Below, one piece after another: positions 39,563-56,917 of a stretch of DNA of 64,000 bases. The position numbers were made by a program, and so were the translations under genes. Source of the DNA: Pararhizobium sp. IMCC21322 (GTDB taxonomy: Bacteria > Pseudomonadota > Alphaproteobacteria > Rhizobiales > GCA-2746425); assembly GCF_030758295.1 (NCBI RefSeq), contig NZ_CP132335.1, forward strand, positions 4,750,412 through 4,814,411. Reading direction: 5' to 3'. The notes beneath the pieces are model-generated. The model ran no database searches, was not told the origin of the DNA, and worked only from the letters and a program-made list of their open reading frames with translations. Numbering within the stretch: the stretch's first letter is position 1; every line of letters begins with the position of its first letter.

Positions 39563-40999
39563 CTACAGCGCAAACTCGGTTACGAATTTTGTTCTTTGGT
39601 AGGCTTCAAGACCTTCAATGCCGCTTTCAGAACCAAAGCCGGAGGCATTAACGCCGCCAAACGGTGTTTCAGGGGTCGAGACCATCATGTGATTGACCCC
39701 CACCATGCCCGCATCCAGACGCGCCTCGGTTTTCATGGCCAGTGATGAACTGCTGGTGAAACAGAAGGATGCAAGGCCGTATGGCAATGCATTGGCCCTC
39801 TCGATCACCTCGTCAAAACCGGAGAACGGCATGATGGAGGCGATAGGACCGAAAGGTTCTTCAGACAAGATGCGAGCCGATTCAGGCACATCGGCCAGCA
39901 CGGTTGGGCTGAAGAAATACCCGGGGCCTTCCATACGACTGCCGCCAAGCTTCAGACTGGCACCCTTGTCCACAGCATCACTAATCAGATCATCAAGTGC
40001 ATCAAGACGGCGCGGTGCGATCATGGGGCCCATTTGGGTGCCCTCATCCAGACCATTGCCGATTTTCAGCTTGCTTGCCCGCTCCACGAAACCAGTCACG
40101 AATGCATCATAGAGGCTTTCATGAATGAAAAAACGCGTCGGCGATGTGCAGACCTGACCCGCATTTCTGTACTTGAAAGTCACGAGCATATTCATGGCGT
40201 GCTCCAGATCAGCATCCGCATGCACGATGACAGGCGCATGGCCACCAAGCTCCATTGTGCTGCGCATAATGGTTTCAGATGCACGCTTTTGCAGAAGCCG
40301 ACCAACTTCGGTAGAGCCGGTCAAAGACATCTTCTTGAAAACCGGAGACGCCAGCAGTGTTTTGGAGATATGATCCGGAGTTCCAAACACCATGTTGATA
40401 ACACCATCCGGCACACCGGCATCCTGGAAACAGCGGGCAAGGGCCACCGCTGTACCCGGCGTTTCTTCAGATGGCTTGACCACCACCGAACAGCCAGCAC
40501 CCAGCGCACCGGCAATTTTGCGAATGACATTGCCCGACGGAAAGTTCCAGGCGGCAAAAGCAGCAACCGGACCAACCGGTTCCTTATAGACCATCTGACG
40601 CACATTGGCCTGGCGCGCAGGCACAATGCGGCCATAGGCGCGCTTGCCCTCTTCCGCATACCAGCGCGTGACTTCCGCAGCGAACTGAACTTCCGGCACG
40701 CCCTCGGCAAGTGACTTGCCGTTTTCCATGGTTAGGTGACGGCCAATTCTGTCCTTGCGCTCTTCGATCAGATCAGCTGCTTTGGACATGATCGCATAGC
40801 GCTCAATGGCCGTCTTGTTCTTCCAGATTTGAAAGCCACGATCTGCAGCGTCCGCAGCTTCGGCAAGATCTGCATCTGTGCACACAGGCACGGTTGCCAA
40901 AACTTCTTCGGTTGCGGGATTTATCAAATCGGTTGTTTTGTTATCGCCGGACTGGCGCCATTTACCATCGATCAGAAGTTCAATCTTCTCGTCATACAT
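39563..40999 (-). CDS. NAD(P)-dependent aldehyde dehydrogenase (succinate-semialdehyde-type)
   Basis: The 478-residue ALDH has the cofactor segment AAWNFPSGN near 145, ELGGHAPVIV near 250 with the general-base Glu, and catalytic cysteine in NAGQVCTSPTRFF near 285. It resembles GabD/YneI and 2-oxoglutarate-semialdehyde dehydrogenases. The latter perform the last step of hydroxyproline breakdown, which fits the operon. It is the final gene, 50 bases after the first proline-racemase-family gene. Two ALDHs in the same operon mean that either could do this step. Confidence 0.85.
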   Translation of the reverse strand: MYDEKIELLIDGKWRQSGDNKTTDLINPATEEVLATVPVCTDADLAEAADAADRGFQIWKNKTAIERYAIMSKAADLIEERKDRIGRHLTMENGKSLAEGVPEVQFAAEVTRWYAEEGKRAYGRIVPARQANVRQMVYKEPVGPVAAFAAWNFPSGNVIRKIAGALGAGCSVVVKPSEETPGTAVALARCFQDAGVPDGVINMVFGTPDHISKTLLASPVFKKMSLTGSTEVGRLLQKRASETIMRSTMELGGHAPVIVHADADLEHAMNMLVTFKYRNAGQVCTSPTRFFIHESLYDAFVTGFVERASKLKIGNGLDEGTQMGPMIAPRRLDALDDLISDAVDKGASLKLGGSRMEGPGYFFSPTVLADVPESARILSEEPFGPIASIMPFSGFDEVIERANALPYGLASFCFTSSSSLAMKTEARLDAGMVGVNHMMVSTPETPFGGVNASGFGSESGIEGLEAYQRTKFVTEFAL

Positions 41000-42052: not shown

Positions 42053-43786
42053 TTAGCGCCGATGCCTTTCCTTGATGCTGTCTGCTATTTTCTCAGCAGC
42101 CATGATCGTCGTCAGCATGGTATTGCCGCTGATCACAGACGGCATGATAGATGCATCCACAACCCGTAAACCGTCCACACCAATAACCCTTCCCTCAGCA
42201 TCAACGACCGCCATCGGGTCCTGCGTATCTCCAATTTTGCAAGTGCCGCTGGCGTGCCAACTGCCGCAGGCATTGTCGATGATCCAAGAGCGCAGAACAT
42301 TGGATGAGCTTCGAAGGGCACCCACATCAATATCTGGCACAATTGCGTTTTCAATCATGAGTTTGCGCGCCAGAGGACCACATTCCATGACCCCCGCCGC
42401 AAGCGACGTCAGGAACCAGTTCTTATGGCTGACCGCTCCAAGTTTGCGGACACGTTCGGAGAAGGTGGCAGGAAATATCTCACCAATGGCTGATGACAGC
42501 GCCGGATCGTCGACCATTGAGAAAAGCCGGTGCATGCCATCCTCAAGCCGCTTGAGGTCCCGTTCATCGGACAATTGCTTGAAATTGACATCCGGGCCGT
42601 GCGTTGGATCGGCATGTCGAAGTTTGACCTCACCGGTTGAATAAGGACGGTTTACGCAAACAATGAGGGAGGCAAGACGCTTGCCAAGTGGGTGCCAGGC
42701 CGCGCGGTTTGACGGCAGAATAAACATATCACCTGGATGGGTGTCTGGCAGTTCCGAGCTGTATCGATACCCCATCTGAATATGACGGCGCATACTCTGC
42801 GGAAGCCGCGATTTGCGAGGCAGAAAACCAGCCAGGGCAACCATGGGATGATCCTGCAAATTCTGCCCCACACCCTTGCGATCAGCACGCACTTCTATGC
42901 CCATCTGTTTCAAATGGTCGGCAGGCCCAATACCTGAGCGCATCAAGATTGCAGGAGACTGTAACGCACCGGCTGAAATAATAACTTCCTGGCCTTTAAG
43001 CTGCTTGCTGCCAGTGCCATTGGTAACCTCAATGCCACTGGCTCGGTTCCCGTCGAACACTATGCTGTTCATCTCGGTCGACGCCAGAATCTTCAAATTG
43101 GGACGTTTGCGCACCTCCCGGTTGAGATACGCAATGGCAGCCGAAACGCGCTTGCCATCAACATTGTTGATCGTCATCGGGAAGTAACCGTCTCGAAAAA
43201 TACCGTTGTGATCCTCGATATTTTCAACACCGCGCTTGTCCAGCACGCTGGCAGTCGCTTTGGCGATGGGAGACCAGTCTTCCTTCGGAATGCGGCGCAG
43301 TGGCAAGGGACCGCTGTCACCATGCAGTTCCGACGCGCCATAATCCAAATCAGTCTCAAGCTTGCGAAAGTATGGCAAGACGCCATTCCAGTCCCATCCG
43401 CTGGCGCCGCCCTGCGCCCATTCATCGTAATCCCAGGGTAGCCCGCGAAAGGCGAATTGTCCGTTGATAGACGTGCCGCCGCCCATCACCTTCGCCTGCT
43501 CATAAGTTCTGGGCTGCACGTCTGGTGATATTGGATTGTTCAGATGAACCTTGATATTCTGCCAATGGTAAGAGCTGTTGAAATAGGCAACGATTGGATA
43601 GGAATCGAGAATGTCTTCAGGAACATTTTCCGGAGGCGTATCAGGACCGGCTTCAACCAAAACGACCTGTAGATTTGGGTCTTCAGACAAGCGGCTTGCG
43701 AGCACAGCACCCGCTGCACCACCACCCACGACAATGTAATCAAATGCGGTTTCGCCGAGCCGCTCAGCCATGGTGGAGCCATACAT
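42053..43786 (-). CDS. GMC-family FAD oxidoreductase (choline-dehydrogenase-like)
   Basis: From the ATG at 43786 (43771 is also possible) the product is about 577 residues. It has FDYIVVGGGAAGAVLASRLSE (in pieces), GGGTSINGQFAFRG near 90, ISAGALQSPAILMRSGIGP (in pieces) near 265 and the C-terminal SWHASGTCKIG with the active-site His, then a late ISGNTMLTTIMAAEKIAD. These enzymes oxidise alcohols, usually passing electrons to quinone or oxygen. In a hydroxyproline-like operon one expects a D-hydroxyproline dehydrogenase of the amino-acid oxidase type. None is present, so this GMC enzyme may act on the hydroxyl group instead. It overlaps the aldehyde dehydrogenase gene by 23 bases. Confidence 0.83.
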   Translation of the reverse strand: MYGSTMAERLGETAFDYIVVGGGAAGAVLASRLSEDPNLQVVLVEAGPDTPPENVPEDILDSYPIVAYFNSSYHWQNIKVHLNNPISPDVQPRTYEQAKVMGGGTSINGQFAFRGLPWDYDEWAQGGASGWDWNGVLPYFRKLETDLDYGASELHGDSGPLPLRRIPKEDWSPIAKATASVLDKRGVENIEDHNGIFRDGYFPMTINNVDGKRVSAAIAYLNREVRKRPNLKILASTEMNSIVFDGNRASGIEVTNGTGSKQLKGQEVIISAGALQSPAILMRSGIGPADHLKQMGIEVRADRKGVGQNLQDHPMVALAGFLPRKSRLPQSMRRHIQMGYRYSSELPDTHPGDMFILPSNRAAWHPLGKRLASLIVCVNRPYSTGEVKLRHADPTHGPDVNFKQLSDERDLKRLEDGMHRLFSMVDDPALSSAIGEIFPATFSERVRKLGAVSHKNWFLTSLAAGVMECGPLARKLMIENAIVPDIDVGALRSSSNVLRSWIIDNACGSWHASGTCKIGDTQDPMAVVDAEGRVIGVDGLRVVDASIMPSVISGNTMLTTIMAAEKIADSIKERHRR

Positions 43787-45236
43787 TTTTGAACCGCAGG
43801 AAACTTTCAAGTCCGCTGCGACCCATCTCCTTGCCAAAGCCGGAACCGTTGAAACCACCTTGAGGGGTTGCATAGTCGGGCTGTCGACCATGGGCATTTA
43901 CCCAGACAGTCCCGGCCTCGATTTGAGAGGGAAGGCGCATCGCCTTGTTGAAATCATCCGTATAGACACTGGCCGCCAAAGCGTAGCTCGGATGATTGGT
44001 CATGGCTATGCCGTCCGCCTCATCCTCATACTCATAGACAGACAGGATTGGACCGAAAAACTCGTCGCGAAACCCGGTTGAAGTTTCGGGAACATTCCGC
44101 AGAATGGTTGGTTGGTAATAAGCGCCGGAATTCATGCTGGCATCACGACCACCACCACAGATGATTTCAGCGCCATCTGCCAGCGTCTGCGCCAGCATGT
44201 CGTCAATGCGTTTGGCCTGCTTTTCAGAAATGATCGGCGGCAGCGTGCAATCAGATTTCCATGTTGGCGCAGCCTTGCGCCCTGCTGCGATTTTCATAAC
44301 CCGTTCCAGCAGGTCTTCCGATTTACTGCTTGGTACAATCAGACGTGTTCCCGCCGTGCAGACCTGACCGGAATTGGCAAGGAAACCATTGGCAACATTT
44401 GTCGCCACCGCATCCATATCAGTGACATCTTTCAGCACCAGTTGCGGCGACTTGCCGCCCAGTTCCAGTGTCACTGGCTTTGTACCAGTCGCAGCAGCAT
44501 CTGCCATCACACGTGCACCTGTCGCAGAAGACCCAGTGAAGGTTATCTTCCTGACAAGGGGATGACGCACCAGATGAGAGCCAGACGGGCCAGCGCCCTG
44601 CATGACGTTCAACACGCCTTTTGGCAGTCCTGCCTCAAGCGCCAGTTCCGCGAAAACCAGTGCTGAATAAGGTGTGAGTTCCGATGGTTTGAGCACCACA
44701 GAATTGCCAACGGCCAAGGCGGGTGCCGATTTCCAGATCGCATTGATGGCGGGGAAATTGAAAGGCGCAATTCCCGCGATGACGCCATAAGGCTCAGGAC
44801 GAACCATCGACGTCGCGCTGTTGTTTCCGGCAATAATCTTGCCTTCAATTTTGTCAGCCCATTCAGCAAAGAACCGCAACGCACCAGATGCACGAACCAG
44901 ATCACGGTTGATGAGATCAGCAACTGGCCTGGTTGTTGATGCCGCTTCAATACGGGCAATCCGCTCGCGATTTTCGTCAATCAGGGCAGCCCAACGATGC
45001 AGAACCGCAGCGCGATCCAATGGGGACGCGTTGCGCCACTCTCCAGTCGTGAACGCGCGATGAGCTGACGTCACAGCCCGGTCAACAATCTCTTCATTAG
45101 CAATGGGAATCGGCGCTGTTTCAAATCCGTCAGACGGACGGAACACAGGCAGTTTTTCGCCATCGAAGACGCGCGCTCCATCAATCAAATGCGCTGCGAC
45201 GAGTTCTATAAAATTGGGATCGAAATCATATGTCAT
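43764..45236 (-). CDS. NAD(P)-dependent aldehyde dehydrogenase
   Basis: The 490-residue ALDH has IAPFNFPAINAIWKSAPALA (in pieces) near 155-175, LELGGKSPQLV near 260 and catalytic cysteine in NSGQVCTAGTRLIVP near 295. It resembles betaine-aldehyde, phenylacetaldehyde and 2-oxoglutarate-semialdehyde dehydrogenases. The gene pairs by overlap with the GMC alcohol oxidase, so a two-step alcohol-to-acid oxidation (alcohol, aldehyde, acid) is a natural reading. It is separated from the second proline-racemase-family gene by 19 bases. Confidence 0.85.
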   Translation of the reverse strand: MTYDFDPNFIELVAAHLIDGARVFDGEKLPVFRPSDGFETAPIPIANEEIVDRAVTSAHRAFTTGEWRNASPLDRAAVLHRWAALIDENRERIARIEAASTTRPVADLINRDLVRASGALRFFAEWADKIEGKIIAGNNSATSMVRPEPYGVIAGIAPFNFPAINAIWKSAPALAVGNSVVLKPSELTPYSALVFAELALEAGLPKGVLNVMQGAGPSGSHLVRHPLVRKITFTGSSATGARVMADAAATGTKPVTLELGGKSPQLVLKDVTDMDAVATNVANGFLANSGQVCTAGTRLIVPSSKSEDLLERVMKIAAGRKAAPTWKSDCTLPPIISEKQAKRIDDMLAQTLADGAEIICGGGRDASMNSGAYYQPTILRNVPETSTGFRDEFFGPILSVYEYEDEADGIAMTNHPSYALAASVYTDDFNKAMRLPSQIEAGTVWVNAHGRQPDYATPQGGFNGSGFGKEMGRSGLESFLRFKNVWLHHG

Positions 45237-45255: not shown

Positions 45256-46266
45256 TCAAACGCCGGTGAGCCTGAACCCTTCCGGGAATGGATCTCTCGG
45301 GTCCACGAAGAAATTAAACGAGCCGGTCAAATAGGCCGAGCCCGTTACGGTGCAGGATATGGCCGGCAGGTCACCGACTTGGGTAGCGCCCGTCACTTTG
45401 CCTGTAAACACCGTGTCGAGAATACCCGCATGGCGGAAACTATCACCGGCTTTCAGCTCACCTTTTGCCGCCAACATGGCCATGCGTGACGCTGTGCCAG
45501 TGCCGCAGGGCGACCGATCGATCACTGTCGGAGGGCATACGACAACATTCTTGGCATCGTAATTTTCACCATCACCATCGGCGATAATCTCAATCTGATA
45601 GATTTCATTGACATGCTTCATTGTCGGGTGCTGCACCGGATGCTCGACCAGAGCATCGCGCAACTCGGCGGCTGCAGTCACCACTTTCCAGGCATAGTCC
45701 GGCGTCAGTTCAAGACCCAGATCACTGGCCTTCACCAACAGATAAAAGTCCCCACCAAAAGCAATATCGGCGCGCACATCGCCATAATTTCTGGTTTTGA
45801 CCGTAATATCTTCGCGGTAGAGAAAGCTGGACGGCATTTCCAGCGTCACGTCCAGCGCCACGCCGTTTTCAACCCGCACCCGGGCCGGCACAACGCCAGC
45901 CGGTGTGTCCAGGCGAACCAGTGTCTCACCTTCCACCACATCCACATATCCAGCTTCCACCGCGATGGTTGCCACTGCCATGGCGCAGTGACCACACATG
46001 GGCGGATACGTGTCGGGCTCAAGAATAAGCATGCCGATATCAGCATCTGCCGAACACGCTTCGGTAAGAACAGCTGCGGGCATGTTGAAGCTGCCGCGCG
46101 GCTCAAACAGAACCAGTTTTCGCAGCCAGTCACGCGTCATCAGATCAGCGCGTTTTTCAACCATGGTCGAGCCGCGAATGGGGCCAAAACCGGAGGTGAC
46201 CAAACGCAGGGGACAGCCGGCTGTGTGGGAATCTATTCCCTGAATTATTCTGGAACTGCGCATCAA
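45256..46266 (-). CDS. Proline racemase family enzyme 2
   Basis: The 336-residue paralogue has both cysteines in place: C91 in PPMCGHCAMAVAT and C254 in DRSPCGTGTASR. The substrate loop reads DSHTAGCPLR instead of HTAGHPTR, and an extra cysteine follows the first motif (CGHC). These changes separate it from the first enzyme and suggest a different substrate or stereochemistry. Its start overlaps the DHDPS-family gene by four bases. The family acts without cofactor on the alpha carbon of proline-like amino acids. Confidence 0.86.
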   Translation of the reverse strand: MMRSSRIIQGIDSHTAGCPLRLVTSGFGPIRGSTMVEKRADLMTRDWLRKLVLFEPRGSFNMPAAVLTEACSADADIGMLILEPDTYPPMCGHCAMAVATIAVEAGYVDVVEGETLVRLDTPAGVVPARVRVENGVALDVTLEMPSSFLYREDITVKTRNYGDVRADIAFGGDFYLLVKASDLGLELTPDYAWKVVTAAAELRDALVEHPVQHPTMKHVNEIYQIEIIADGDGENYDAKNVVVCPPTVIDRSPCGTGTASRMAMLAAKGELKAGDSFRHAGILDTVFTGKVTGATQVGDLPAISCTVTGSAYLTGSFNFFVDPRDPFPEGFRLTGV

Positions 46267-47180
46267 GCCTGCTCTTCAAGGGAAGCGACAAGGCCGGCAA
46301 CATTGTTGTCCGAAAGTATCTTCTCTACCTTCGACATCTGCTCATCGCTGAATGGAAGAAGAGGTTTGCGTGGTTTGCCAACGGGCTGATCCAGACTGTT
46401 CATCACAGCTTTGATGCCAGCATAATAGCTGCCCTGCTTGAAGCACGAGTAGATGGCAAAGAGCGCAGGTTCGAGCTTGTCAATCACGTCTGTATTGTTG
46501 GCTGCACAGGCATCAAAATAGCGACGAACCATAGTGCCCGACAGTTGATGTGCCATTGCAACGACACCAACCGCCCCCACCGCAAGCGCAGGGCGGATCA
46601 TGGTTTCATAGCCGACAAAGACGTTGATTTTATCGCCCAGTTTGCGCACCAGTTCGGTGACCTGAATGATGTCCCCGGAGCTGTCTTTGATCGCGACGAC
46701 TGTCGGCAGTTCCGCCAGTTCTGAAACAATCCCGATATCAAGCGCCACTCCGGCCCTCTTCGGTGAATTATAGAGCATGACCGGAAGCTGCGTTGCGCCG
46801 CAAAGGTCTTTGAAATACTGAATAATCTCCCGACGATCAGGGGCGGCATAGATGGGCGGCATGGCCAGAATGCCATCGAGACCGGCCTTCTCAGCCTCAT
46901 GCGCCAATCGAATTGCATTTGCAGGCAAGAGATCTGAAACACCGGCAATCACGGGCACACTGCTTTTTGCCGCAGTCCGGGTGCATTTGAAAAGCTCGAT
47001 CCGCTCTTCCATTGTCATGGCGTAAAACTCGCCTGTGCTGCCACAGACGATCACAGCATCTGCACCATTTGAAATATTGGCTTCGACCAGCTCGCTGTAG
47101 CGTTTGAAATCTATATTGCCGCTATCGTCGAATGGTGTGACCAGAACACTTTGAATTCCAGACCAGTTGGGGTTGGGCAT
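46263..47180 (-). CDS. DHDPS/NAL-family lyase (candidate pyrroline-4-hydroxy-2-carboxylate deaminase)
   Basis: The 305-residue barrel protein has GSTGEFYAMT (47-56), the catalytic Tyr137 in VMLYNSP and the Schiff-base Lys165 in VVAIKDSSGD. In hydroxyproline operons a member of this family deaminates and opens 1-pyrroline-4-hydroxy-2-carboxylate to 2-oxoglutarate semialdehyde. The proline-racemase genes and aldehyde dehydrogenases beside it make that role likely, though dihydrodipicolinate synthase, keto-deoxy acid dehydratase and aldolase members share the same motifs. Confidence 0.82.
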   Translation of the reverse strand: MPNPNWSGIQSVLVTPFDDSGNIDFKRYSELVEANISNGADAVIVCGSTGEFYAMTMEERIELFKCTRTAAKSSVPVIAGVSDLLPANAIRLAHEAEKAGLDGILAMPPIYAAPDRREIIQYFKDLCGATQLPVMLYNSPKRAGVALDIGIVSELAELPTVVAIKDSSGDIIQVTELVRKLGDKINVFVGYETMIRPALAVGAVGVVAMAHQLSGTMVRRYFDACAANNTDVIDKLEPALFAIYSCFKQGSYYAGIKAVMNSLDQPVGKPRKPLLPFSDEQMSKVEKILSDNNVAGLVASLEEQA

Positions 47181-47202: not shown

Positions 47203-48027
47203 TCAGACTTTTATGAAGGGCTTCATCATCTCTGCGGTTTGATGAAAGCGGTTTACGAACCCCTTAACGCGCTCGTTTGGTGGGTTCATGAGAATATCAG
47301 ATGGCAGTCCATCAGCGCAGACGGTTCCCTGATCGAGAAACACAACCCGTTTTGCAACCTCCAGCGCAAAGCCAAGCTCATGGGTCACAACAATCATGGT
47401 CATGCCTTCTTTGGCCAATTCAATCATCGTGCCCAGAACCTCGCCAACGAGTTCCGGGTCCAGCGCCGATGTCGGCTCATCAAACAGCATGACTTCAGGC
47501 TCCATGTTCAATGCACGGGCAATGGAAACGCGCTGTTTCTGACCGCCAGAAAGGCTTGACGGAGACCGGTCGGCAAAGTCGGCCATACCGACCTTCTCCA
47601 GATAGCTCATTGCCCGATCACGATTGGTGTTGTGAGCCTCACCTTTGACCGTCTTCGGGCCTTCCATGACATTGGCCAGAACTTTCATGTGTGGAAACAG
47701 ATTGAACTGCTGGAACACCATGCCGATGCGGCTTCGGATGGCGTTGGTTTGCGCGGCTGAAAGCCCAAGCTCATCCTTGCCATTGTCAAAATGAAAGAAT
47801 GGGTCGCCACTCAATGAAATCTTGCCATGGCTTGGCTTGGCCAAAAGGTTCAAACAACGCAGGAGCGTGGTTTTACCGGAACCACTGGACCCGATCAGCG
47901 CCACCACGTCACCGCGATTGACCGTTAGATCAACGCCGGAAAGAACCTCCACAGCCCCATAAGATAACCGGATATCTTCGACCGAAATGGCAGGCATGGC
48001 TGAGGAAGCTTGCGGTTCGGAACTCAT
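47203..48027 (-). CDS. Polar amino-acid ABC transporter ATP-binding protein (GlnQ type)
   Basis: The 274-residue ATPase has Walker [12 protein letters not shown] near residue 35, signature LSGGQKQR near 160 and Walker [21 protein letters not shown] near 182. These are standard for polar amino-acid importers (GlnQ/HisP). The first 12 residues are a polar extension. It overlaps the permease gene by four bases and precedes the DHDPS-family gene. Confidence 0.88.
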
Positions 48028-48677
48028 GACTTCACCTCACCCTGTTCGAGGCGACGGGCGATGTAGGTCAGCGGAACCAAAATAGCCAGGAAGACCAGCG
48101 CAATGGTTGTGTAGACTTCCAGCGGACGATACGTGAAGGACGCAATATACTCGGCCTGATACAGCAGATCAGGCACCGTGATAACGGCAAGAAGCGTCGT
48201 GTTTTTCAATTGAATGATCATCTGGCCAGCGAGTGGCGGAATCATGCGGCGCAGGGCCTGTGGCAGGATGACCCGGACATTCATTTGTCGATAGGACATG
48301 CCAAGCGCCACCGCAGCGTCGCTTTGTCCTGAATCGATGGACTGAATTCCGGCTCTGAAAATCTCGGCAAAATAGGCGGCGCCATAAAGGCTCAACGCCA
48401 GGATGCCAGCTGCTTCCTTGGAGATGTTGATGCCCATGAAGATGGGCAGAGCGTAATAGGCCCAAAGCAACCAGACCAGCAGCGGAATATTTCGGAAAAA
48501 CTCAACAAACAGTCGACCGATCAACACGACGATCTTGTTGGTTGTCAATTGCATCAGGGCAACGATCAAACCAATCACCAGGCCGATCACCGACGTGATG
48601 AGGGTGTATTCAAGAGTGATCAGAACACCCGACCAAATCAGGTGCGAATTCTGTGTTATGGCCGACCAGTCAAACAT
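48024..48677 (-). CDS. Polar amino-acid ABC transporter permease
   Basis: The 217-residue permease has about five membrane spans and the HisM/GlnP motif ([20 protein letters not shown], then [29 protein letters not shown], in pieces). Only one permease gene is present, so it probably works as a homodimer. It is separated from the binding-protein gene by a stem-loop. Confidence 0.88.
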
Positions 48678-48736: not shown

Positions 48737-49579
48737 TTAGAAGCTGAAGTCGCCTGGTAGAACAGACAGATCCAGTCCGGCTTCTTCAAAGGACTTTGCA
48801 AGCTTGCCCTGGGCCAGACCCAGCGAGCGTTGCTGCGACGTCCAGTTTTCAAGCCAGTTCAGCCAACCCGCATTGCCAGCTTCCCTGCGCACACCGATCA
48901 CAGCGGTGTTTACGAGTGCAGGGCTTGGAACAAAGACTTCGCCATTGATTTCCGGCGCAACCTGCACAGCATCAAAACTGGCAAGCAGCATGGCATCAGC
49001 ACGATTGGAGTTGATTTCCAGAACGCCCAATGAGCGTGTGCCAACCACAATGATCTCTGCCTTCGGTGTCAGAGCTTCGGCAACCACTTGCATGGTGCTG
49101 CCTTTTTGAACGGCAAGACGAACCGATGGGTCGTTCAACTCTGCCCAGCTTTTCTTGTCGAAACCGGCTTTGGAGACGACGGTCCATGGACCATAGAAGA
49201 GCGGAATAGACGTGTAATCGACCACAAGGCCACGCTGTGGATTGGGGTTCAAGCCGATAGCAATATCGACCTTGCGTGCCTGAAAGTCAGCCGCAAGATT
49301 GCCCCATGTTGTTTCAACAAACTCGAGCTCGACACCCAGAATGGCGGCAATTTCCTGTCCCCATTCAACGTAGAAGCCACTCCATTCACCTGTACCAGGA
49401 TCCTTGATGTAGCTGGGCTCTTCGCCAATGATGACCGGGAATTTCAGAACGCCGGAGCTTCTGATGTTGTTCAGAACCAGCGACGGATCGTCGGCCTGAG
49501 CTGGCTGCGTAAACGCACCAACTGTCATGAACAGAGCTGCAAATGCGCAGATCCAGGTTTTAAACTTTCTAAAAGCCAT
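48737..49579 (-). CDS. Periplasmic amino-acid-binding protein (SBP_bac_3)
   Basis: The 280-residue protein has a signal peptide (FRKFKTWICAFAALFMTVGA, cleavage near PAQA) and the family-3 binding fold: WSGFYVEWGQEIAAILGVELEFVETTW (in pieces), ARKVDIAIGLNPNPQRG and LAVQKGSTMQVVAEAL. It should present an imino or amino acid to the adjacent GlnQ-type importer. As the gene directly downstream of the proline-racemase-domain regulator it is probably the first controlled transport gene. Confidence 0.86.
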   Translation of the reverse strand: MAFRKFKTWICAFAALFMTVGAFTQPAQADDPSLVLNNIRSSGVLKFPVIIGEEPSYIKDPGTGEWSGFYVEWGQEIAAILGVELEFVETTWGNLAADFQARKVDIAIGLNPNPQRGLVVDYTSIPLFYGPWTVVSKAGFDKKSWAELNDPSVRLAVQKGSTMQVVAEALTPKAEIIVVGTRSLGVLEINSNRADAMLLASFDAVQVAPEINGEVFVPSPALVNTAVIGVRREAGNAGWLNWLENWTSQQRSLGLAQGKLAKSFEEAGLDLSVLPGDFSF

Positions 49580-49608: not shown

Positions 49609-51501
49609 TTAAGAGCCGAGGAAGCCGCACTGCAATGGATCATCAGGCTCGAGCACGAGCGTGGAAATTCCATTGAGATGCGCACGTCCCGAAATTTTGG
49701 GGACGCATACGAGGCGTCCCTCGGGCGCCTTCGCAATACTGATAATTTGTCCAGAGAGCTGACCGCCAAAGATGCTGTCTGCATGGAAAGTCTGTCCGGC
49801 AGCCAATTGGCCTGCGACAACCTTTTGCACCATCCGCGCCGCAAGTGCGGTCACACCGGGGGATCGATCGTATCGGTTGCGGTCAATAGACAGGAAAAGG
49901 CGTTCTGAGTTTTTTGAAACCGTTTGAAACAGCAGCACAGATTCGATCAATTTGGTCTCGGGCCGGTCAAGCTCCGCAATCGCACTGCGCAACTCGTCTG
50001 CGGCCAGCAAAATCTCCTGCAGTGCATGATCGTTCAGGTCAAGTCCCAGCAAAGCTGCGTCAATAACGGCATGCGTGTTTCCGCCATATACTATTGACAG
50101 CTCGACCGTTCGGCCACGAAATGGCACTGAAATATCATCGGCGGTCACATAAGCCTGCGGCAACGCTACATCAATCTGATCACTGTCCGGATGCACCGTA
50201 ACGCCGACAGTCGCGCGCGGCATCTCGATGGTGAATTCGGTTCGGTCGTTCAACCGGCCCATGGATTTCAACGCTTTGGCATAACCAAATACGGCATGAC
50301 CACAAAGTTCGGGATAACCGTATGAAGTAATGAAAAACGCACCGAAGTCCGCCGTTTTGGAAGCAAACGGAACCAGGCCGAAAGAGCCACTATGCCCGCG
50401 AGGCTCTTGCAGCAGGAGCGTTCGCAGATGGTCGTGATTTTTCTCGAAGGACCGAGCCTTTTCGGTGGCTGTGTTGCCTTCAAGTCCTGGGAGGGACTCA
50501 ATCAGAATGCGTGTTGGGTGACCGGCAGTGTGCGTTTCCAGAACCCTGAAGGTTTCTGCGCCTTCCGGGAGCTGCACGTCCAACGTACCCTCGCCCAAAC
50601 CGGAACCATGCGAAACACCCAGGCCAAAACGATTGCGCGGCTGATCAAACTGCATGGCTGAAACGCGTGCTGCATCGGTGTTGACCCAAAGCACTTTTAC
50701 GGGGTCAGAGCCGAGATTTCGCCAGCGGTGCTCCAGGGAGCTGTTGAAGTAGGCACTGTCTCCAGGCTGCAAAATTGCGGGAGAGCGGCCAGCCAGCGTA
50801 ATCTCGAATTCACCCGACAGAATGTAAATCAGCTCCTCACCATCGTGAGAATAATAGCCATCGCTTTCAGCGCCAGGTTCAATGGTCCAAACTTCGACGT
50901 CCATCAGTTTTTCAGCAACTGTTAGCTGCTCGACCGAGACCCCCGGTCCGAACGTTCCAACAACACGGCCGGTTCCTTGGCGCACGATTGGAACATGGTC
51001 GTGATGCGTTCCACCCAGCAACTCTGCAAGAGAGCGCCCGAATGCCAGAGCGACACTGTTCAATCTGGCGGGAGACAAAAATGCCGTGCCACGCTCAAAC
51101 ATGCTCAGATGCGAGACACCAATATCGGTTTTTTCCGAAAGAGCCCGCAGCGACAAACCACTCTCTTTGCGCATGGTGCGAATGCGTGCGCCGATTTTGC
51201 TGAAATCGACTGTGGTGCGCTCAATACCTGAATCGTGAGTGATCGGTTTTTGCTCATCCGGTTCGCTATCGATCAGTTCCTTGATCTTTGTCAGGCTGTG
51301 ACCCGATAATTTGCGCATCTGTTCAATAGTGCGAATGCGATCCATGTCGTCAGACGAAAATGAACGATGGCCGCTGGCGGATTTGAACGGATTTATCAAC
51401 CCCGCATTTTCCCATGAGCGAAGCGTCGAAACGGACACGCCGATTACCTTGGCCACGTGACCAATCGAATACGGATTTTTGTCGTTTTGTGGCTTCAACA
51501 T
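49609..51501 (-). CDS. MerR-XRE-cupin-proline racemase fusion regulator
   Basis: This 630-residue protein contains four modules. Residues about 10-78 are a MerR-type winged helix (YSIGHVAKVIGVSVSTLRSW, then GHRSFSSDDMDRIRTI). Residues about 100-165 form an XRE/Cro helix-turn-helix (RIRTMRKESGLSLRALSEKT, then HLSMFERG). Residues about 195-275 form a cupin_2 sensor (HDGEELIYILSGEFEI, then LQPGDSAYF, then EHRWRN). Residues about 315-630 match the full proline-racemase fold (ETHTAGHPTR, LCGHAVFG with C400). At the second active-site loop the usual DRSPCGTGTSAR reads DRSPGVTALAAR, so the catalytic cysteine is Gly549 and the carboxylate-binding GTGT is lost. Racemisation is therefore unlikely; I infer a ligand-sensing or one-base lyase role. 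The gene heads the imino-acid operon with two intact racemase-family enzymes. Confidence 0.88.
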   Translation of the reverse strand: MLKPQNDKNPYSIGHVAKVIGVSVSTLRSWENAGLINPFKSASGHRSFSSDDMDRIRTIEQMRKLSGHSLTKIKELIDSEPDEQKPITHDSGIERTTVDFSKIGARIRTMRKESGLSLRALSEKTDIGVSHLSMFERGTAFLSPARLNSVALAFGRSLAELLGGTHHDHVPIVRQGTGRVVGTFGPGVSVEQLTVAEKLMDVEVWTIEPGAESDGYYSHDGEELIYILSGEFEITLAGRSPAILQPGDSAYFNSSLEHRWRNLGSDPVKVLWVNTDAARVSAMQFDQPRNRFGLGVSHGSGLGEGTLDVQLPEGAETFRVLETHTAGHPTRILIESLPGLEGNTATEKARSFEKNHDHLRTLLLQEPRGHSGSFGLVPFASKTADFGAFFITSYGYPELCGHAVFGYAKALKSMGRLNDRTEFTIEMPRATVGVTVHPDSDQIDVALPQAYVTADDISVPFRGRTVELSIVYGGNTHAVIDAALLGLDLNDHALQEILLAADELRSAIAELDRPETKLIESVLLFQTVSKNSERLFLSIDRNRYDRSPGVTALAARMVQKVVAGQLAAGQTFHADSIFGGQLSGQIISIAKAPEGRLVCVPKISGRAHLNGISTLVLEPDDPLQCGFLGS

Positions 51502-51818
51502 ATAGATATTTTCTTCATATATAGGTTTATTGAATTTTTCTGAGCGTAAGTTGATATTTTGAATATGTCAACGATCATTAGGCGCAATTTGGAAATACAA
51601 CCGATAGTTGCGCCCCGGAATGAGGGTGGAGCCGGCATGTCTATAATGACAGCGAAGAGCTTTCTTGCCCGGTGCAAGCCTCAAACAGGAAAGCGATAGG
51701 AACTGCCCCCCGTCAGAGCCTGTTTCCGTAGTCGCAATCATTGGCGCGGTTGTCATACCTGACGTAAATGGCCTGGAGCAGTGTCAGTTTATCGCTGTCT
51801 ACGATGGCGAAAAAACAC

Positions 51819-52320: not shown

Positions 52321-53415
52321 CTGACGCAAGATACTTCAGGCGATGCCTTCGTCGAATTCGACCGGGTCCAGAAAAGCTATGATGGCGAAGTGCTGGTCGT
52401 AAAAAATCTGAACCTTTCCATGCCAAAGGGTGAGTTTCTCACAATGCTTGGTCCGTCAGGGTCAGGCAAGACAACCTGTCTGATGATGCTGGCGGGGTTT
52501 GAAACCGCAACCCGCGGTGAAATTCGATTGGATGGCGCTGAAATCAACAACATTCCTCCGCACAAACGCGGCATTGGTATGGTGTTTCAGAACTATGCCT
52601 TGTTCCCTCATATGACTGTTGGTGAAAACCTGGCTTTTCCGCTGGAAGTGCGCGGCATGGGCAAGGCCGAGAGAGACGCCAAGGTGATCCGTGCGCTGGA
52701 TATGGTTCAGATGGGGGAATTTGGGTCCCGTCGCCCGGCGCAATTGTCAGGCGGCCAGCAACAAAGGGTTGCATTGGCGCGTGCCCTGGTTTTCGACCCA
52801 AGTCTGGTGCTGATGGATGAGCCCCTCGGAGCCCTCGACAAGCAGCTCCGCGAGCACATGCAATATGAAATCAAGCATCTGCATGAAAGCCTCGGCATTA
52901 CGGTTGTTTATGTGACACATGATCAATCAGAGGCGCTGACGATGTCTGATCGCGTTGCCGTATTTAATGATGGTGAAATCCAGCAGCTTGCACCACCGGC
53001 AGACTTGTATGAATGCCCGGACAATAGTTTTGTGGCGCAGTTTATTGGTGAGAACAATAAATTGAACGGCACTGTCAGCGAACGGTCCGGAGATGAAGTT
53101 TCTGTGAAACTGGAAAATGGTGCACAGTGCAAAGCATTGGCTGTGAATTGCGGTGGCGTGGGAGAAGAAACGCTCATTTCAATTCGCCCCGAGCGGGTTG
53201 CCATCGGTGGAAGTGTCGGTGATAATTCGACAGAGGCCCTTGTTAAGGAACTGATTTATCTCGGCGATCACATTCGCTGTCGGTTGAATGTTCATGGAAA
53301 TGACCAGTTTATTGTCAAAGTCTCAAACTCAGCTGGTCACAAACATCTGGTAGTAGGTGAAAAGACTCAGATCAACTGGGCGGTTCAGGATGCGCGTGCC
53401 TTGAACCCTCTGTAA
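52321..53415 (+). CDS. potA: Spermidine/putrescine-type ABC transporter ATP-binding protein (PotA), likely CTG start
   Basis: The ATPase has Walker A LGPSGSGKTT, signature LSGGQQQR, Walker B VLMDEPLGALD and a C-terminal TOBE-like regulatory region. The first ATG/GTG/TTG in this frame is GTG 52390, which would remove the first beta-strand and the A-loop tyrosine (VEFDRVQKSYDGE). The frame is open upstream to 52282 without any usual start codon. A CTG at 52321 has GGGAG six bases before it and would give 364 residues beginning TQDTSGDAFVEF, like ordinary family N-termini. I therefore infer a CUG start. It belongs to the importer operon with the binding protein and two permeases that follow. Confidence 0.8.
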   Translation: MTQDTSGDAFVEFDRVQKSYDGEVLVVKNLNLSMPKGEFLTMLGPSGSGKTTCLMMLAGFETATRGEIRLDGAEINNIPPHKRGIGMVFQNYALFPHMTVGENLAFPLEVRGMGKAERDAKVIRALDMVQMGEFGSRRPAQLSGGQQQRVALARALVFDPSLVLMDEPLGALDKQLREHMQYEIKHLHESLGITVVYVTHDQSEALTMSDRVAVFNDGEIQQLAPPADLYECPDNSFVAQFIGENNKLNGTVSERSGDEVSVKLENGAQCKALAVNCGGVGEETLISIRPERVAIGGSVGDNSTEALVKELIYLGDHIRCRLNVHGNDQFIVKVSNSAGHKHLVVGEKTQINWAVQDARALNPL

Positions 53416-53513
53416 GCATTATATGTGTTGGGGAAATGCCGAAAAATAAACAATTTGGGCAAAAATATCGGTCCAATTTTATCTAAAACGCAACATCCAT
53501 ATGGAGAAAACCA

Positions 53514-54587
53514 ATGAGAAAAACTCTACTTATTGCAACAGCCATAACCGGTTTTGCTTTCGCGGCGCAAGCTGCCGAAGTGACGGTCCTTGGTTGGGGT
53601 GGCGCATACACCAAAAGCCAGTCCGAAGCCTACCATAAGCCATTCACAGCTGAGACCGGTATCACCGTGAACTCTGTTGATGCCGATAACCCTGCAACGC
53701 CTATCAAAGCGCAGGTTGAGGCAGGCAATGTGACGATTGATGTCGCCAGTGTTGAATTTGCGGATGGTATTCGTCTCTGCGATGAAGGCCTGCTCGAAGA
53801 AATTGATCACTCAATTCTGCCAGCAGCACCGGACGGCACTCCGGCTACCGAAGATTTCCTGCCCGGCTCATTGACAGAGTGCATTATCGGCACAGATGTA
53901 TATGCCACCGTATTTGCCTATAATTCCAGCAAGTTTGATGGCAACGCACCAACGTCGATTGCGGACTTTTTTGATACAGCAGCGTTTCCTGGCAAACGCG
54001 GTATGCGCAAAACCGCAAAGGCAAATCTTGAAATGGCTCTGATGGCGGACGGTGTACCGGCTGCTGAAGTGTACGATCTGCTTGGAACCGATGAAGGCGT
54101 TGATCGTGCATTCGCCAAATTGGACCTGATTAAAGATTTGGTCGTCTGGTGGGAAGCTGGCGCTCAGCCACCACAACTTCTGGCAGATGGTGAAGTTGAC
54201 ATGTCAACTGCCTATAATGGCCGGATTTTCAATGCGGTCATCGGTGAAGATCAGCCATTTGAAATCATCTGGGATGGCCAGGTATACGAGTTTGAAGGCT
54301 ACGTGATTCCAAAAGGTGCGCCAAATATGGAAGAAGCGAAAGCGTTTGTGGCATTTGCTGCGCGCACGGAAGCTTTGGCCAAAGCTGCGGAATGGATCAG
54401 CTATGGTCCGCCCCGGGTTTCCTCTGGTCCATTGGTCGGCAAATATTTTGACGGATCAATCGAGATGGGTCCAAATCTGCCAACAACGGCTGCCAACCTG
54501 ACAAACGCCCTGGCATCCTCTAACGATTTCTGGGCTGACAAGGATACCGAGCTGAACGAACGCTTTAACGCGTGGCTCGCGAACTGA
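53514..54587 (+). CDS. Periplasmic polyamine-type substrate-binding protein (PotD-like)
   Basis: The 357-residue protein has a signal peptide (RKTLLIATAITGFAFAAQAA) and a SBP_bac_8 fold: VTVLGWGGAYTKSQSEAY, ADGIRLCDEGLLEEIDHS and FFDTAAFPGKRGMRKTAK. Family members bind spermidine, putrescine or opine-like and aromatic cations. It is placed between the ATPase gene and two permease genes. The arginine deiminase downstream is on the opposite strand, so a link between arginine-related compounds and this importer is only suggestive. Confidence 0.83.
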   Translation: MRKTLLIATAITGFAFAAQAAEVTVLGWGGAYTKSQSEAYHKPFTAETGITVNSVDADNPATPIKAQVEAGNVTIDVASVEFADGIRLCDEGLLEEIDHSILPAAPDGTPATEDFLPGSLTECIIGTDVYATVFAYNSSKFDGNAPTSIADFFDTAAFPGKRGMRKTAKANLEMALMADGVPAAEVYDLLGTDEGVDRAFAKLDLIKDLVVWWEAGAQPPQLLADGEVDMSTAYNGRIFNAVIGEDQPFEIIWDGQVYEFEGYVIPKGAPNMEEAKAFVAFAARTEALAKAAEWISYGPPRVSSGPLVGKYFDGSIEMGPNLPTTAANLTNALASSNDFWADKDTELNERFNAWLAN

Positions 54588-54596
54588 AACTTGAAC

Positions 54597-54617
54597 GGGG
54601 GCACCTTGTGTGCCCCC
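54597..54617 (+). terminator. Intercistronic hairpin after the binding-protein gene
   Basis: GGGGGCAC and GTGCCCCC pair perfectly around a CTTGT loop, 9 bases after the stop. There is no strong T-run. This is the same placement as in three other transporter operons of the window and probably favours binding-protein output. Confidence 0.65.
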
Positions 54618-54693
54618 ACTTCATTTGCAGGATTATTCTGAAATAACGCAAGTCTGACAGTCGTTTCTGGCAGTCGTTAAGGTGGGCAAACGG

Positions 54694-55977
54694 ATGGCTG
54701 ATACAGCAAACAGTTTTGACAACAGGCCCACGCAAGCAGAACTCGACCTCACAACGGTCGACGGAACACCGTTGAAAGTCGCACTGGCCAACGCTCAGAA
54801 GCGCGCACGACAGCGTGCCCTGTTTCTGGTTTTGCCCCTGTTGCTGTTCGTGCTGATAACGTTTCTTGCCCCGATTGGGCAAATGCTGTTCCGCTCGGTC
54901 CACAATCCAAGTTTTTCCGATCATATTCCAAATCTGAGCGTGTGGTTTGACGAAAACCCCGCTGGTACCGAGCCGGGTGAAGCTGCCTTTGAAGCGCTGG
55001 TTCTGGATCTGCGCAGCATGCGCGCGGACAAAACCATGGGCATCGCCGGAACCCGTATAAATTATGACCTGCCCGGAAGCCGGTCCCTGTTTACCGGTAC
55101 CGCACGCAAAGCCGGGGCGATGGAGCCTTCGTTTCAGGAAGCTATCCTGGCGGCCGACCAAAAATGGGCTGATCCGAAGCTTTGGCAAGTCATGCGCGGC
55201 GCATCCTCAGCCTACACGGCTGATTTTTACCTGGCCGCACTGGATCGCACGCGGGATGTGAACGGTGATATCGTTGCGGTCGATGATGATCGAAAAATCT
55301 ATGCGGCTAATTTTCTAAAAACGTTGTTTTTGGCAGGATTGATTACATTTTGTTGCCTGATCCTGGCCTTTCCGGTCGCCCATCTGCTGGCCACATTGCC
55401 GCTGCGCCAATCAAATTTACTGATGATTTTTGTATTGCTTCCATTCTGGACGTCATTGCTGGTCCGCACGACCAGCTGGATTGTGCTGCTGCAATCGCAA
55501 GGCGTGGTCAATGACACCTTGGTTGCGACCGGCATCGTAGCTGACGAAAGCCGGATACAGATGATCTACAATCAAACCGGAACGATTGTAGCCATGATCC
55601 ACATTCTGCTGCCCTTTATGATCCTGCCGCTTTATTCTGTCATGCGGCCAATCAACCCGAGCTATGTTCGCGCGGCCCGATCTTTGGGCGCGACAAGCTG
55701 GACTGCTTTTCGCCGGATATACCTGCCACAAACCATCCCGGGCATGGGCGCTGGAGGACTATTGGTTTTCATTCTTGGCGTTGGCTATTACATCACCCCG
55801 GCGCTGGTGGGTGGAGCGAGCGGTCAGTTGATCTCTAATTTTATTGCCTTTCACATGCAAAAATCATTGAACTGGTCGCTTGCAGCCGCGCTGGCAACCC
55901 TGCTGCTTTTGATGGTTTTGCTGTTGTACTGGCTTTATGACCGCCTCGTTGGCATCGACAATTTGAAGTTAGGGTAG
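54694..55977 (+). CDS. potB: Polyamine-type ABC transporter permease (PotB-like)
   Basis: The product is 427 residues from the ATG at 54694, which has AAGGTGG upstream; a GTG at 54682 is the alternative. The protein has one membrane span near residue 45 and then an unusually long periplasmic-like insert of about 150 residues. The remaining five spans follow, with the permease loop (YVRAARSLGATSWTAFRRIYLPQ, in pieces). Ordinary PotB is about 280-300 residues; the inserted form is known in a subgroup of putrescine/opine-type permeases. It pairs with the next permease. Confidence 0.84.
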   Translation: MADTANSFDNRPTQAELDLTTVDGTPLKVALANAQKRARQRALFLVLPLLLFVLITFLAPIGQMLFRSVHNPSFSDHIPNLSVWFDENPAGTEPGEAAFEALVLDLRSMRADKTMGIAGTRINYDLPGSRSLFTGTARKAGAMEPSFQEAILAADQKWADPKLWQVMRGASSAYTADFYLAALDRTRDVNGDIVAVDDDRKIYAANFLKTLFLAGLITFCCLILAFPVAHLLATLPLRQSNLLMIFVLLPFWTSLLVRTTSWIVLLQSQGVVNDTLVATGIVADESRIQMIYNQTGTIVAMIHILLPFMILPLYSVMRPINPSYVRAARSLGATSWTAFRRIYLPQTIPGMGAGGLLVFILGVGYYITPALVGGASGQLISNFIAFHMQKSLNWSLAAALATLLLLMVLLLYWLYDRLVGIDNLKLG

Positions 55978-55981
55978 CGCT

Positions 55982-56917
55982 ATGGCTCTTCCAAAACACG
56001 CATCAACCCTGGAACGGGTTTGGCACTACACCTATCTGGTGATTTGCGGGCTGATCTTCTTGTTTCTGATCGCGCCGATTCTCATCGTCATTCCATTGAG
56101 TTTCAATGCCGAGCCCTATTTCACATTCACCCAGAAAATGATGTCCTTCGACCCTGAGGGCTTTTCGACGCGCTGGTATGATCTGCTTCTGACATTCGGC
56201 ATGTCTGCGCCGGATGTGGCGCGAGACGGCAGCTGGTGGGCGGATGTCTGGCAGAATTCAGCCTGGGTACAAGCGGCAAAAAACTCGGTCATAGTGGGTG
56301 TGTTCGCAACCATTTTTGCAACTGTTCTGGGAACCATTGCGGCCTTGGGATTAAGCCGACCGGAAATGCCGTACAGGCGTTTAATCATGGCAGTTCTGAT
56401 TTCGCCAATGATTGTCCCGATCATCATCACCGCAACCGGATTGTTCTTTTTCTATTCATCCATCCAGATTGCAAAGTGGGAGCTGTTTGGATGGCAAATC
56501 CCATATCTCGGGATTATCCTGGCCCATGCGACTTTGGGCATTCCATTTGTCATCATCACCGTCACCGCAACCCTGGTGGGATTTGATCATTCTTTGACGC
56601 GTGCTGCCGCCTCGCTCGGCGCTAATCCAAGAACAACGTTTTTCAAAGTCACAATGCCACTCATACTTCCTGGTGTGATTTCCGGAGCGCTTTTTGCTTT
56701 TGTCACATCCTTTGATGAGGTGGTTGCCGTGCTGTTTATTGGCGCCTTTGACGAGCAGACAATCCCGCGCCAGATGTGGAATGGCATCCGTGAACAGATC
56801 AGCCCTGCCATCCTCAGCGTGGCAACTATTCTGGTGGTTATCTCCGTCTTGTTGTTGACGGTGCTGGAACTCCTGCGTCGACGCTCCGAACGCCTCAGAG
56901 GTCTGTCGCCCGGATAG
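55982..56917 (+). CDS. potC: Polyamine-type ABC transporter permease (PotC-like)
   Basis: The 311-residue permease has six spans and the loop LTRAAASLGANPRTTFFKVTMP (in pieces) near 200-220. It has an extra stretch of about 40 residues after the first span (DPEGFSTRWYDLL, then MSAPDVARDGSWWADVW). The gap to the previous gene is four bases. It ends the operon; 56918-57036 separates it from the convergent arginine deiminase and contains only a weak 6-bp stem. Confidence 0.85.
   Translation: MALPKHASTLERVWHYTYLVICGLIFLFLIAPILIVIPLSFNAEPYFTFTQKMMSFDPEGFSTRWYDLLLTFGMSAPDVARDGSWWADVWQNSAWVQAAKNSVIVGVFATIFATVLGTIAALGLSRPEMPYRRLIMAVLISPMIVPIIITATGLFFFYSSIQIAKWELFGWQIPYLGIILAHATLGIPFVIITVTATLVGFDHSLTRAAASLGANPRTTFFKVTMPLILPGVISGALFAFVTSFDEVVAVLFIGAFDEQTIPRQMWNGIREQISPAILSVATILVVISVLLLTVLELLRRRSERLRGLSPG

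Follow-up and report, generated by a model that had tools for sequence, protein, structure and literature searches.

A gene at the head of an amino-acid import and catabolism operon of Pararhizobium sp. IMCC21322 encodes one chain in which two DNA-binding modules and a cupin precede a proline-racemase fold with glycine in place of its second catalytic cysteine. What an enzyme fold does in such a regulator is the question that this locus raises. The original prediction, made from a stretch of 64,000 nucleotides (the window; contig NZ_CP132335.1, positions 4,750,412 to 4,814,411), was that the fold had been recruited as a sensor for the operon's own substrate. We followed up this prediction by domain, structural, phylogenetic and upstream-sequence analysis of the fusion and its relatives. 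The features of the operon are collected in Table 1.

Table 1. Features of the fusion operon, with positions in the window
Feature	Position	Strand	Basis or remark
Second aldehyde dehydrogenase, probably last operon gene	39563..40999	-	
RAC2, stand-alone proline-racemase-family enzyme, C89/C251	41049..42050	-	Pfam and residues
GMC oxidoreductase, choline-dehydrogenase-like	42053..43897	-	True start probably later, ORF overlapping neighbour
Aldehyde dehydrogenase	43764..45236	-	Pfam
RAC1, stand-alone proline-racemase-family enzyme, C91/C254	45256..46266	-	Pfam and residues
DHDPS-family lyase/aldolase	46263..47180	-	Pfam
Amino-acid ABC importer, ATP-binding protein	47203..48027	-	Domain/family profile match
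Amino-acid ABC importer, permease	48024..48677	-	Domain/family profile match
Amino-acid ABC importer, substrate-binding protein (SBP_bac_3)	48737..49579	-	Pfam; adjoins fusion in 16/16
Fusion regulator, 630 aa	49609..51501	-	MerR_1 11-79, HTH_3/XRE 107-161, Cupin_2 204-273, Pro_racemase 320-627, C400, G549
Candidate operator box 2	51516..51534	-	Repeats box 1 in direct orientation with a 29-bp offset, 12/19 matching
Candidate operator box 1, TTCAAAATATCAACTTACG	51545..51563	-	Within conserved 33-bp footprint
-35 like hexamer TTGACA	51566..51571	-	TTGACN in 16/16 upstream regions

A four-domain fusion at the head of an import and catabolism operon

The fusion gene is a single uninterrupted ORF with an ATG start. 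Its product matched four Pfam families above their curated cut-offs: MerR_1 (PF13411; E 4.9e-18), HTH_3 (E 8.3e-13), Cupin_2 (E 1.2e-19) and Pro_racemase (PF05544; E 1.9e-57, profile positions 1-324 of 325). The intact ORF and these matches bear out the proposed combination of MerR, XRE, cupin and full-length racemase domains in one chain. The protein has the helix-turn-helix of a MerR-family regulator as well as the HTH_3-then-cupin order of XRE-cupin regulators, the latter being present in all 16 fusion proteins found; MerR and XRE modules belong to two different DNA-binding families, and their presence in one chain is an unusual arrangement. The cupin residues H219, E223 and H258, potential metal ligands, were invariant in the 16 proteins and may form a metal site or a second ligand site.

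An AlphaFold2 model built from a 16-row alignment had a mean pLDDT of 72.1 and a pTM of 0.54. Ten-residue means of pLDDT were 80-97 over residues 331-610, except for residues 361-370 (55), which hold the EPRGH motif, and pLDDT was low in linkers and in parts of the cupin. In a Foldseek search the predicted fold of the C-terminal part resembled solved proline racemases, 4-hydroxyproline epimerases and trans-3-hydroxyproline dehydratases (TMt 0.75-0.87; 6r76, 6j7c, 4j9w and others) which, with the near-complete PF05544 match, places it in the fold of the proline racemase superfamily.

Full-length fusion genes were found in 16 genomes, window included. The other 15 proteins were 43-93% identical to the window protein, and each of the 16 contained all four Pfam families, as expected of an architecture shared by other proteins. 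The finding of the intact fusion in 16 genomes ruled out that separate genes had been joined by an assembly error or by chance. Full-length matches occurred in 8 of 397 genomes of the order (window included), in 1 further genome among 385 of the class, and in 8 of 248 genomes of one family, all of one genus and 7 of them new. Additional draws of 5, 1, 3, 299, 20 and 87 genomes contained no further fusion gene; among 72,556 plasmids, none had one place covering 80% of the fusion chain, and parts of it were matched in 890. These frequencies are lower bounds, with 3-14 candidates scored per genome in the larger searches, which were mostly even draws from larger groups. The fusion of genome G061 ended at a normal stop three residues short of the window protein's end. 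The called ORF of G089 (717 aa) starts too early, with the conserved upstream site falling within the extension, and its upstream region was delimited at the conserved KPYSIGHV codon.

The gene order and the cysteines of RAC1 and RAC2 agreed with the proposal that the fusion heads an operon with an importer and two intact racemase-family enzymes. In all 16 genomes the same-strand order was fusion, substrate-binding protein, permease, ATPase, DHDPS-family protein, RAC1, aldehyde dehydrogenase and GMC oxidoreductase. RAC2 followed in 15 of the 16 runs and was absent in G089, and an aldehyde-dehydrogenase-family gene, as judged by comparison with the first aldehyde dehydrogenase only, likewise closed the remaining 15 runs. 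No RAC2 orthologue was seen among the five PF05544 places of the G089 genome (fusion, RAC1 and three others); the three others were 29-33% identical to RAC2 of the window, versus 55-61% for RAC2 beside fusions (that of G003 excepted). A divergent ABC importer lies opposite the fusion operon on the plus strand (window 52390-56917), with a PotA-like ATPase, a binding protein and two permeases.

The DHDPS-family protein, the aldehyde dehydrogenase and the pair of racemase-family enzymes are reminiscent of hydroxyproline routes, but the oxidase here is a GMC protein and not a D-amino-acid oxidase. A 4-hydroxyproline pathway would need a D-amino-acid-oxidase-type protein, and no operon gene passed the Pfam cut-off for one. 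NCBIfam gave no substrate assignment, as RAC1 and RAC2 both scored below every equivalog cut-off.

Related clusters were found with other regulators. In Rhizobium sp. ACO-34A and genomes G246 and G121, an intact unfused racemase lay ahead of genes for a substrate-binding protein, permease, aldehyde dehydrogenase and GMC protein, and was preceded by a GntR/FCD gene in all three. In Bradyrhizobium sp. 187, Rhizobium etli and Mesorhizobium sp. AR02, the racemase gene lay within an importer-DHDPS cluster together with a PLP-aminotransferase-family gene; the Bradyrhizobium cluster ends in a gene with GntR and aminotransferase domains (L015 13976-15394), which are MocR-like. As judged by neighbourhood alone, at least three regulator types serve similar pathways, and two of these types are enzyme-fold fusions.

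Catalytic residues, selection and origin of the racemase domain

Cys400 and Gly549 were present at the predicted positions, and the usual DRSPCGTG sequence reads DRSPGVTA in the window protein, confirming loss of the GTG loop. Cys400 was retained in all 16 fusion proteins, whereas position 549 was Gly in 14 and Cys in two (G087 and G089). The window protein therefore lacks the pair of catalytic cysteines, in motifs CGH and DRSPCGTG, of two-base racemases and epimerases; it also differs from trans-3-hydroxyproline dehydratases in having Gly instead of Thr at position 549 and scored 142 bits against the NF045511 cut-off of 540. We infer from these residues that the window protein has probably lost racemase activity. 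The predicted inactivation fits the 14 Gly-type fusions, the window protein among them, but the two proteins with both cysteines mean that this is not a family of dead enzymes. Homologues that combined Cys549 with racemase activity had been named as evidence against inactivation; the cysteine half of that combination was found in these two proteins.

Several relatives had other combinations of residues. The G087 fusion (L040 4767-6668) keeps the second cysteine and has CAH in place of CGH at the first catalytic motif. The G089 fusion (L039) has both cysteines, its operon lacks RAC2, and the protein may combine the roles of regulator and enzyme. Stand-alone Cys/Gly proteins, with CGA at the first motif and DRSPGGTG at the second, are encoded by two adjacent genes on a plasmid of Agrobacterium deltaense (L064 4931-5986 and 5983-7017) and by one gene in G089 (L077).

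In addition to Cys400, residue His402 and the EPRGH and DRSP motifs were invariant in all 16 fusions, and the CGTG loop had become GV(T/A/G)(A/G) in the 14 Gly-type proteins. Among these 14, 89 of 313 racemase-domain positions were invariant, including H324, T325, G327, H328, EPRGH 366-370, C400, G401, H402 and DRSP 545-548. All 16 family-motif positions were thus invariant versus 89/313 for the domain; the chance of this under random draw is about 6e-10, a rough figure given that the positions were picked after viewing the alignment and that the parent family itself conserves its motif residues.

Racemase-domain dN/dS was 0.060 between the window and G003, its 93% relative, and ranged from 0.058 to 0.191 over eight pairs, exceeding the whole-chain value in seven of them. 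Mean pairwise identity over the same five genomes was 0.505 for the fused domain, 0.614 for RAC2 and 0.846 for RAC1. The domain is under purifying selection and evolves faster than RAC2 and RAC1. A pocket that was kept, with the second base lost and somewhat relaxed constraint elsewhere, would fit ligand binding without racemisation, though not uniquely.

The history of the domain was examined in a tree of 51 racemase-family rows, from which 12 of 63 rows (RAC1 and RAC2 of six of the eight species of genus g66) had been removed beforehand as thinning, and which carries a long-branch warning that includes the G061 fused domain and the ACO-34A racemase. The 16 fused domains formed one clade (100/99). 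Within it the 14 Gly549 domains formed one clade (100/100), and the two Cys-type fusions were its sister (100/97). Residues 8-300, the N-terminal part, gave a tree with the same Gly/Cys split, in which four stand-alone proteins fell outside and the branch of the Cys pair had only 86/79. Because there is a single fused clade, with the Gly clade inside it and the Cys pair as sister, the simplest history is probably one fusion of an intact racemase followed by one later loss of the second cysteine. The family is unusual in comprising two stages, one in which the fusion has both cysteines and one in which it has a single cysteine.

The nearest unfused racemase rows retain both cysteines; only a weakly supported branch (89/70) connects them with the fusions, so that the tree does not single out a donor of the racemase domain. 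A separate MerR-XRE-cupin gene beside an unfused racemase was ruled out in three relatives checked, which do not point to a donor of the N-terminal half because they carry the GntR/FCD gene there instead. We tentatively consider that the family may preserve an enzyme-to-sensor series, a reading to which we give somewhat less than even weight. An intact racemase joined to the double helix-turn-helix would have been a bifunctional trigger enzyme, and in one RAC2-bearing lineage catalysis would then have been given up at the second cysteine, with the pocket retained for sensing alone. The bifunctional stage is perhaps still seen in G089, where both cysteines occur in a genome in which no RAC2 orthologue was seen.

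The invariant Cys400, His402, EPRGH and DRSP would also suit a domain that still catalyses with one base, Cys400, for example as a hydroxyproline-type dehydratase, so that the chain would turn over its substrate and regulate. Known trans-3-hydroxyproline dehydratases have a single active-site cysteine with Thr at the second position, according to the part of PMC4113996 available, and the stand-alone Cys/Gly proteins offer further one-cysteine examples. However, those three proteins keep GGTG where the Gly-type fusions have the altered loop, the Gly fusions did not group with the two dehydratase rows in the racemase tree, and all 14 Gly-type genes are accompanied by RAC1 and RAC2, each of which has two cysteines. 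We therefore regard continued catalysis by the window protein as unlikely.

Somewhat less probable still is that the cupin is the real sensor and that the racemase domain merely dimerises or stabilises the chain. The MerR-XRE-cupin part can presumably work alone, because proteins exist that align to the first 280 residues of the chain and end there (S. meliloti L017, A. vitis L018, G094 L043 and G324 L044), and the potential metal ligands of the cupin are invariant. Conservation of the racemase domain nevertheless extends beyond the fold to its pocket motifs, and for a domain that only dimerises, Cys, EPRGH or DRSP should be dispensable. That the domain is a non-functional remnant of a decaying fusion is very improbable; the lost cysteine, the low identity relative to RAC1 and RAC2 and the raised dN/dS are in its favour, but full length in all 16 proteins, the range of dN/dS and the invariant motif residues mean that selection and conservation have already largely refuted it.

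A conserved footprint upstream of the fusion genes

Upstream of all 16 fusion genes we found a conserved footprint of TTGACN, 17 bases and TAYNNT, in which a TTCAA-rich box with a consensus near TTCAATAAATCNACATACS spans the spacer and the -10 element. The footprint starts 64-74 bp before the start codon used in 15 genes and 98 bp before the KPYSIGHV codon in G089. In nine of the 16 genomes, the 33-bp block had a mean identity of 0.77, versus 0.24-0.30 in the preceding ten-base blocks, with flanks at about 26%; this profile was anchored on the first ~17 footprint bases, and bases 20-30, past the anchor, still gave 0.76.

The operator pattern used in searches was chosen after viewing these sequences. 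The footprint pattern was absent at up to two mismatches from seven fetched loci with unfused racemase relatives, and the box was absent at up to three mismatches from three of four loci of stand-alone MerR-XRE-cupin-like genes. The fourth locus (L018) had five weak box matches, the best with two mismatches. The operon site was the only zero-mismatch place in eight of nine genomes, and the ninth had two one-mismatch places, both before its fusion gene. A regulon elsewhere was rejected: of 14 places with at most one mismatch in the nine genomes, 10 precede the fusion and 4 lie outside the operon, each with one mismatch, versus 5 for a reversed control.

For the two boxes of the window, 0.42 matches were expected by chance at the stringency used, and 10 of 100 shuffles reached two. 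A counterpart of box 2 was present at 28-29 bp in seven genomes (11-15/19 matching) and was weaker or differently built in the other nine, namely eight genomes of genus g66 and G048 (8-11/19). Reading the pair as an inverted repeat (7-11/19) was worse than the direct repeat in the seven genomes with a clear second box, and equal or better in six of the other nine. By eye, the second element in the genomes favouring the inverted reading is GGTATGTAGA, an inverted copy of TCTACATACC.

The minus-strand promoter of the fusion operon went unreported in a generic scan for promoters, because its -10 element (TACGCT) is weak; such an element makes it possible that the promoter needs an activator. In classical MerR activation the operator lies in an over-long promoter spacer of 19-20 bp. 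The TTGACN-TAYNNT spacing was 17 bp in 16/16 as read from the aligned regions, with some uncertainty in the -10 placement, and if this element is rightly placed the spacing would argue against classical MerR activation. The footprint is presumably the operator of the fusion protein itself; it could instead be owned by another regulator.

Proposed regulation and comparison with known systems

The reading that we favour, and consider reasonably likely, is that the fusion protein is a self-regulating repressor of a prolyl-type import and catabolism operon, with the racemase domain as ligand sensor. In its origin, an intact racemase, perhaps one that headed a related operon, would have become fused to a MerR-XRE-cupin regulator. 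Later, in the window lineage, the second catalytic cysteine and the GTG loop would have disappeared, with the first cysteine and the HTxGHPT, EPRGH, CGH and DRSP motifs retained. The MerR and XRE modules would bind an operator overlapping the operon's own promoter, with box 1 between and into the -35 and -10 hexamers and box 2 just downstream, and binding would hold the operon down. An imported or partly processed imino acid would close the racemase domain, releasing the operator; the candidate ligands are prolyl amino acids and products related to them. Members of the proline racemase superfamily are reported in PMC4113996 to adopt closed structures with ligand bound.

We propose repression because the footprint sits across the -35 and -10 elements and just downstream, as in EnuR of ectoine catabolism. 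This MocR-type repressor likewise controls an import-and-catabolism cluster, and its two predicted operators overlap the core elements of a sigma-70 type promoter, according to the portion of PMC8739950 available. As to recruitment of the enzyme fold as sensor, the one-chain regulator, the purifying selection, the kept motifs, the single cysteine loss and the footprint in all 16 genomes partly support the original prediction, and sensing itself may reasonably be inferred from the sequences. The fusion protein would offer a candidate sensor for prolyl amino acids. As a second enzyme fold used in this way, with relatives at three stages (stand-alone, fused with two cysteines and fused with one), it would allow a direct test of the exchange of catalysis for sensing, and the two-cysteine relatives point to a route by which an enzyme may become a sensor.

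Transcription factors that sense through an enzyme fold are already known from MocR/GabR regulators, while no description of one with a racemase fold was found in the literature searched. Like the fusion, MocR/GabR proteins such as EnuR join a DNA-binding domain to a metabolic-enzyme fold as effector domain (PMC8739950, in the part available). They differ in using a GntR winged helix and a PLP aminotransferase fold, neither of which was found in a Pfam scan of the fusion protein, instead of MerR, XRE, cupin and a racemase fold. ProR, 4HypE and t3HypD of the proline racemase superfamily share the full-length fold and the HTxGHPT, EPRGH, CGH and DRSP motifs with the window protein, which is unlike them in its Gly at the second catalytic residue, its replaced GTG loop and its fusion to a regulator; the words fusion and fused are absent from the available main text of PMC4113996. 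HypR of Streptomyces coelicolor controls hydroxyproline utilisation genes, a pathway type resembling the window operon, but is GntR-like by its title (PMC6608401); three unfused relatives of the window operon (G246, G121 and Rhizobium sp. ACO-34A) likewise carry a GntR/FCD gene in front.

In the literature searched, which was mostly without subscription journals, we found no description of a proline racemase joined to MerR and cupin or acting as a pseudoenzyme. For a fusion of proline racemase and helix-turn-helix only HypR came up, and for a MerR, XRE and cupin architecture only one jumbo-phage overview, both judged from the portions of text available.

Likenesses to the N-terminal half were also found. 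The match to the XRE-cupin regulator PuuR (NCBIfam PRK09943) extended over the HTH and cupin at residues 103-274, with 42.5 bits, far short of the cut-off of 211; to our knowledge the PuuR family has neither a MerR nor a racemase domain. The shorter proteins of L017, L018, L043 and L044 were 34-36% identical and covered residues ~4-13 to 275. They differ from the fusion in their length (268-281 aa), in being without a racemase domain and in falling outside the fused clade in the N-terminal tree, and the neighbours of the A. vitis gene differ from those of the fusion operon. Elsewhere in the source genome, a 45-position fragment matching the end of PF05544 (G000:C1:4071033-4071167; L084) is perhaps a remnant of another racemase gene.
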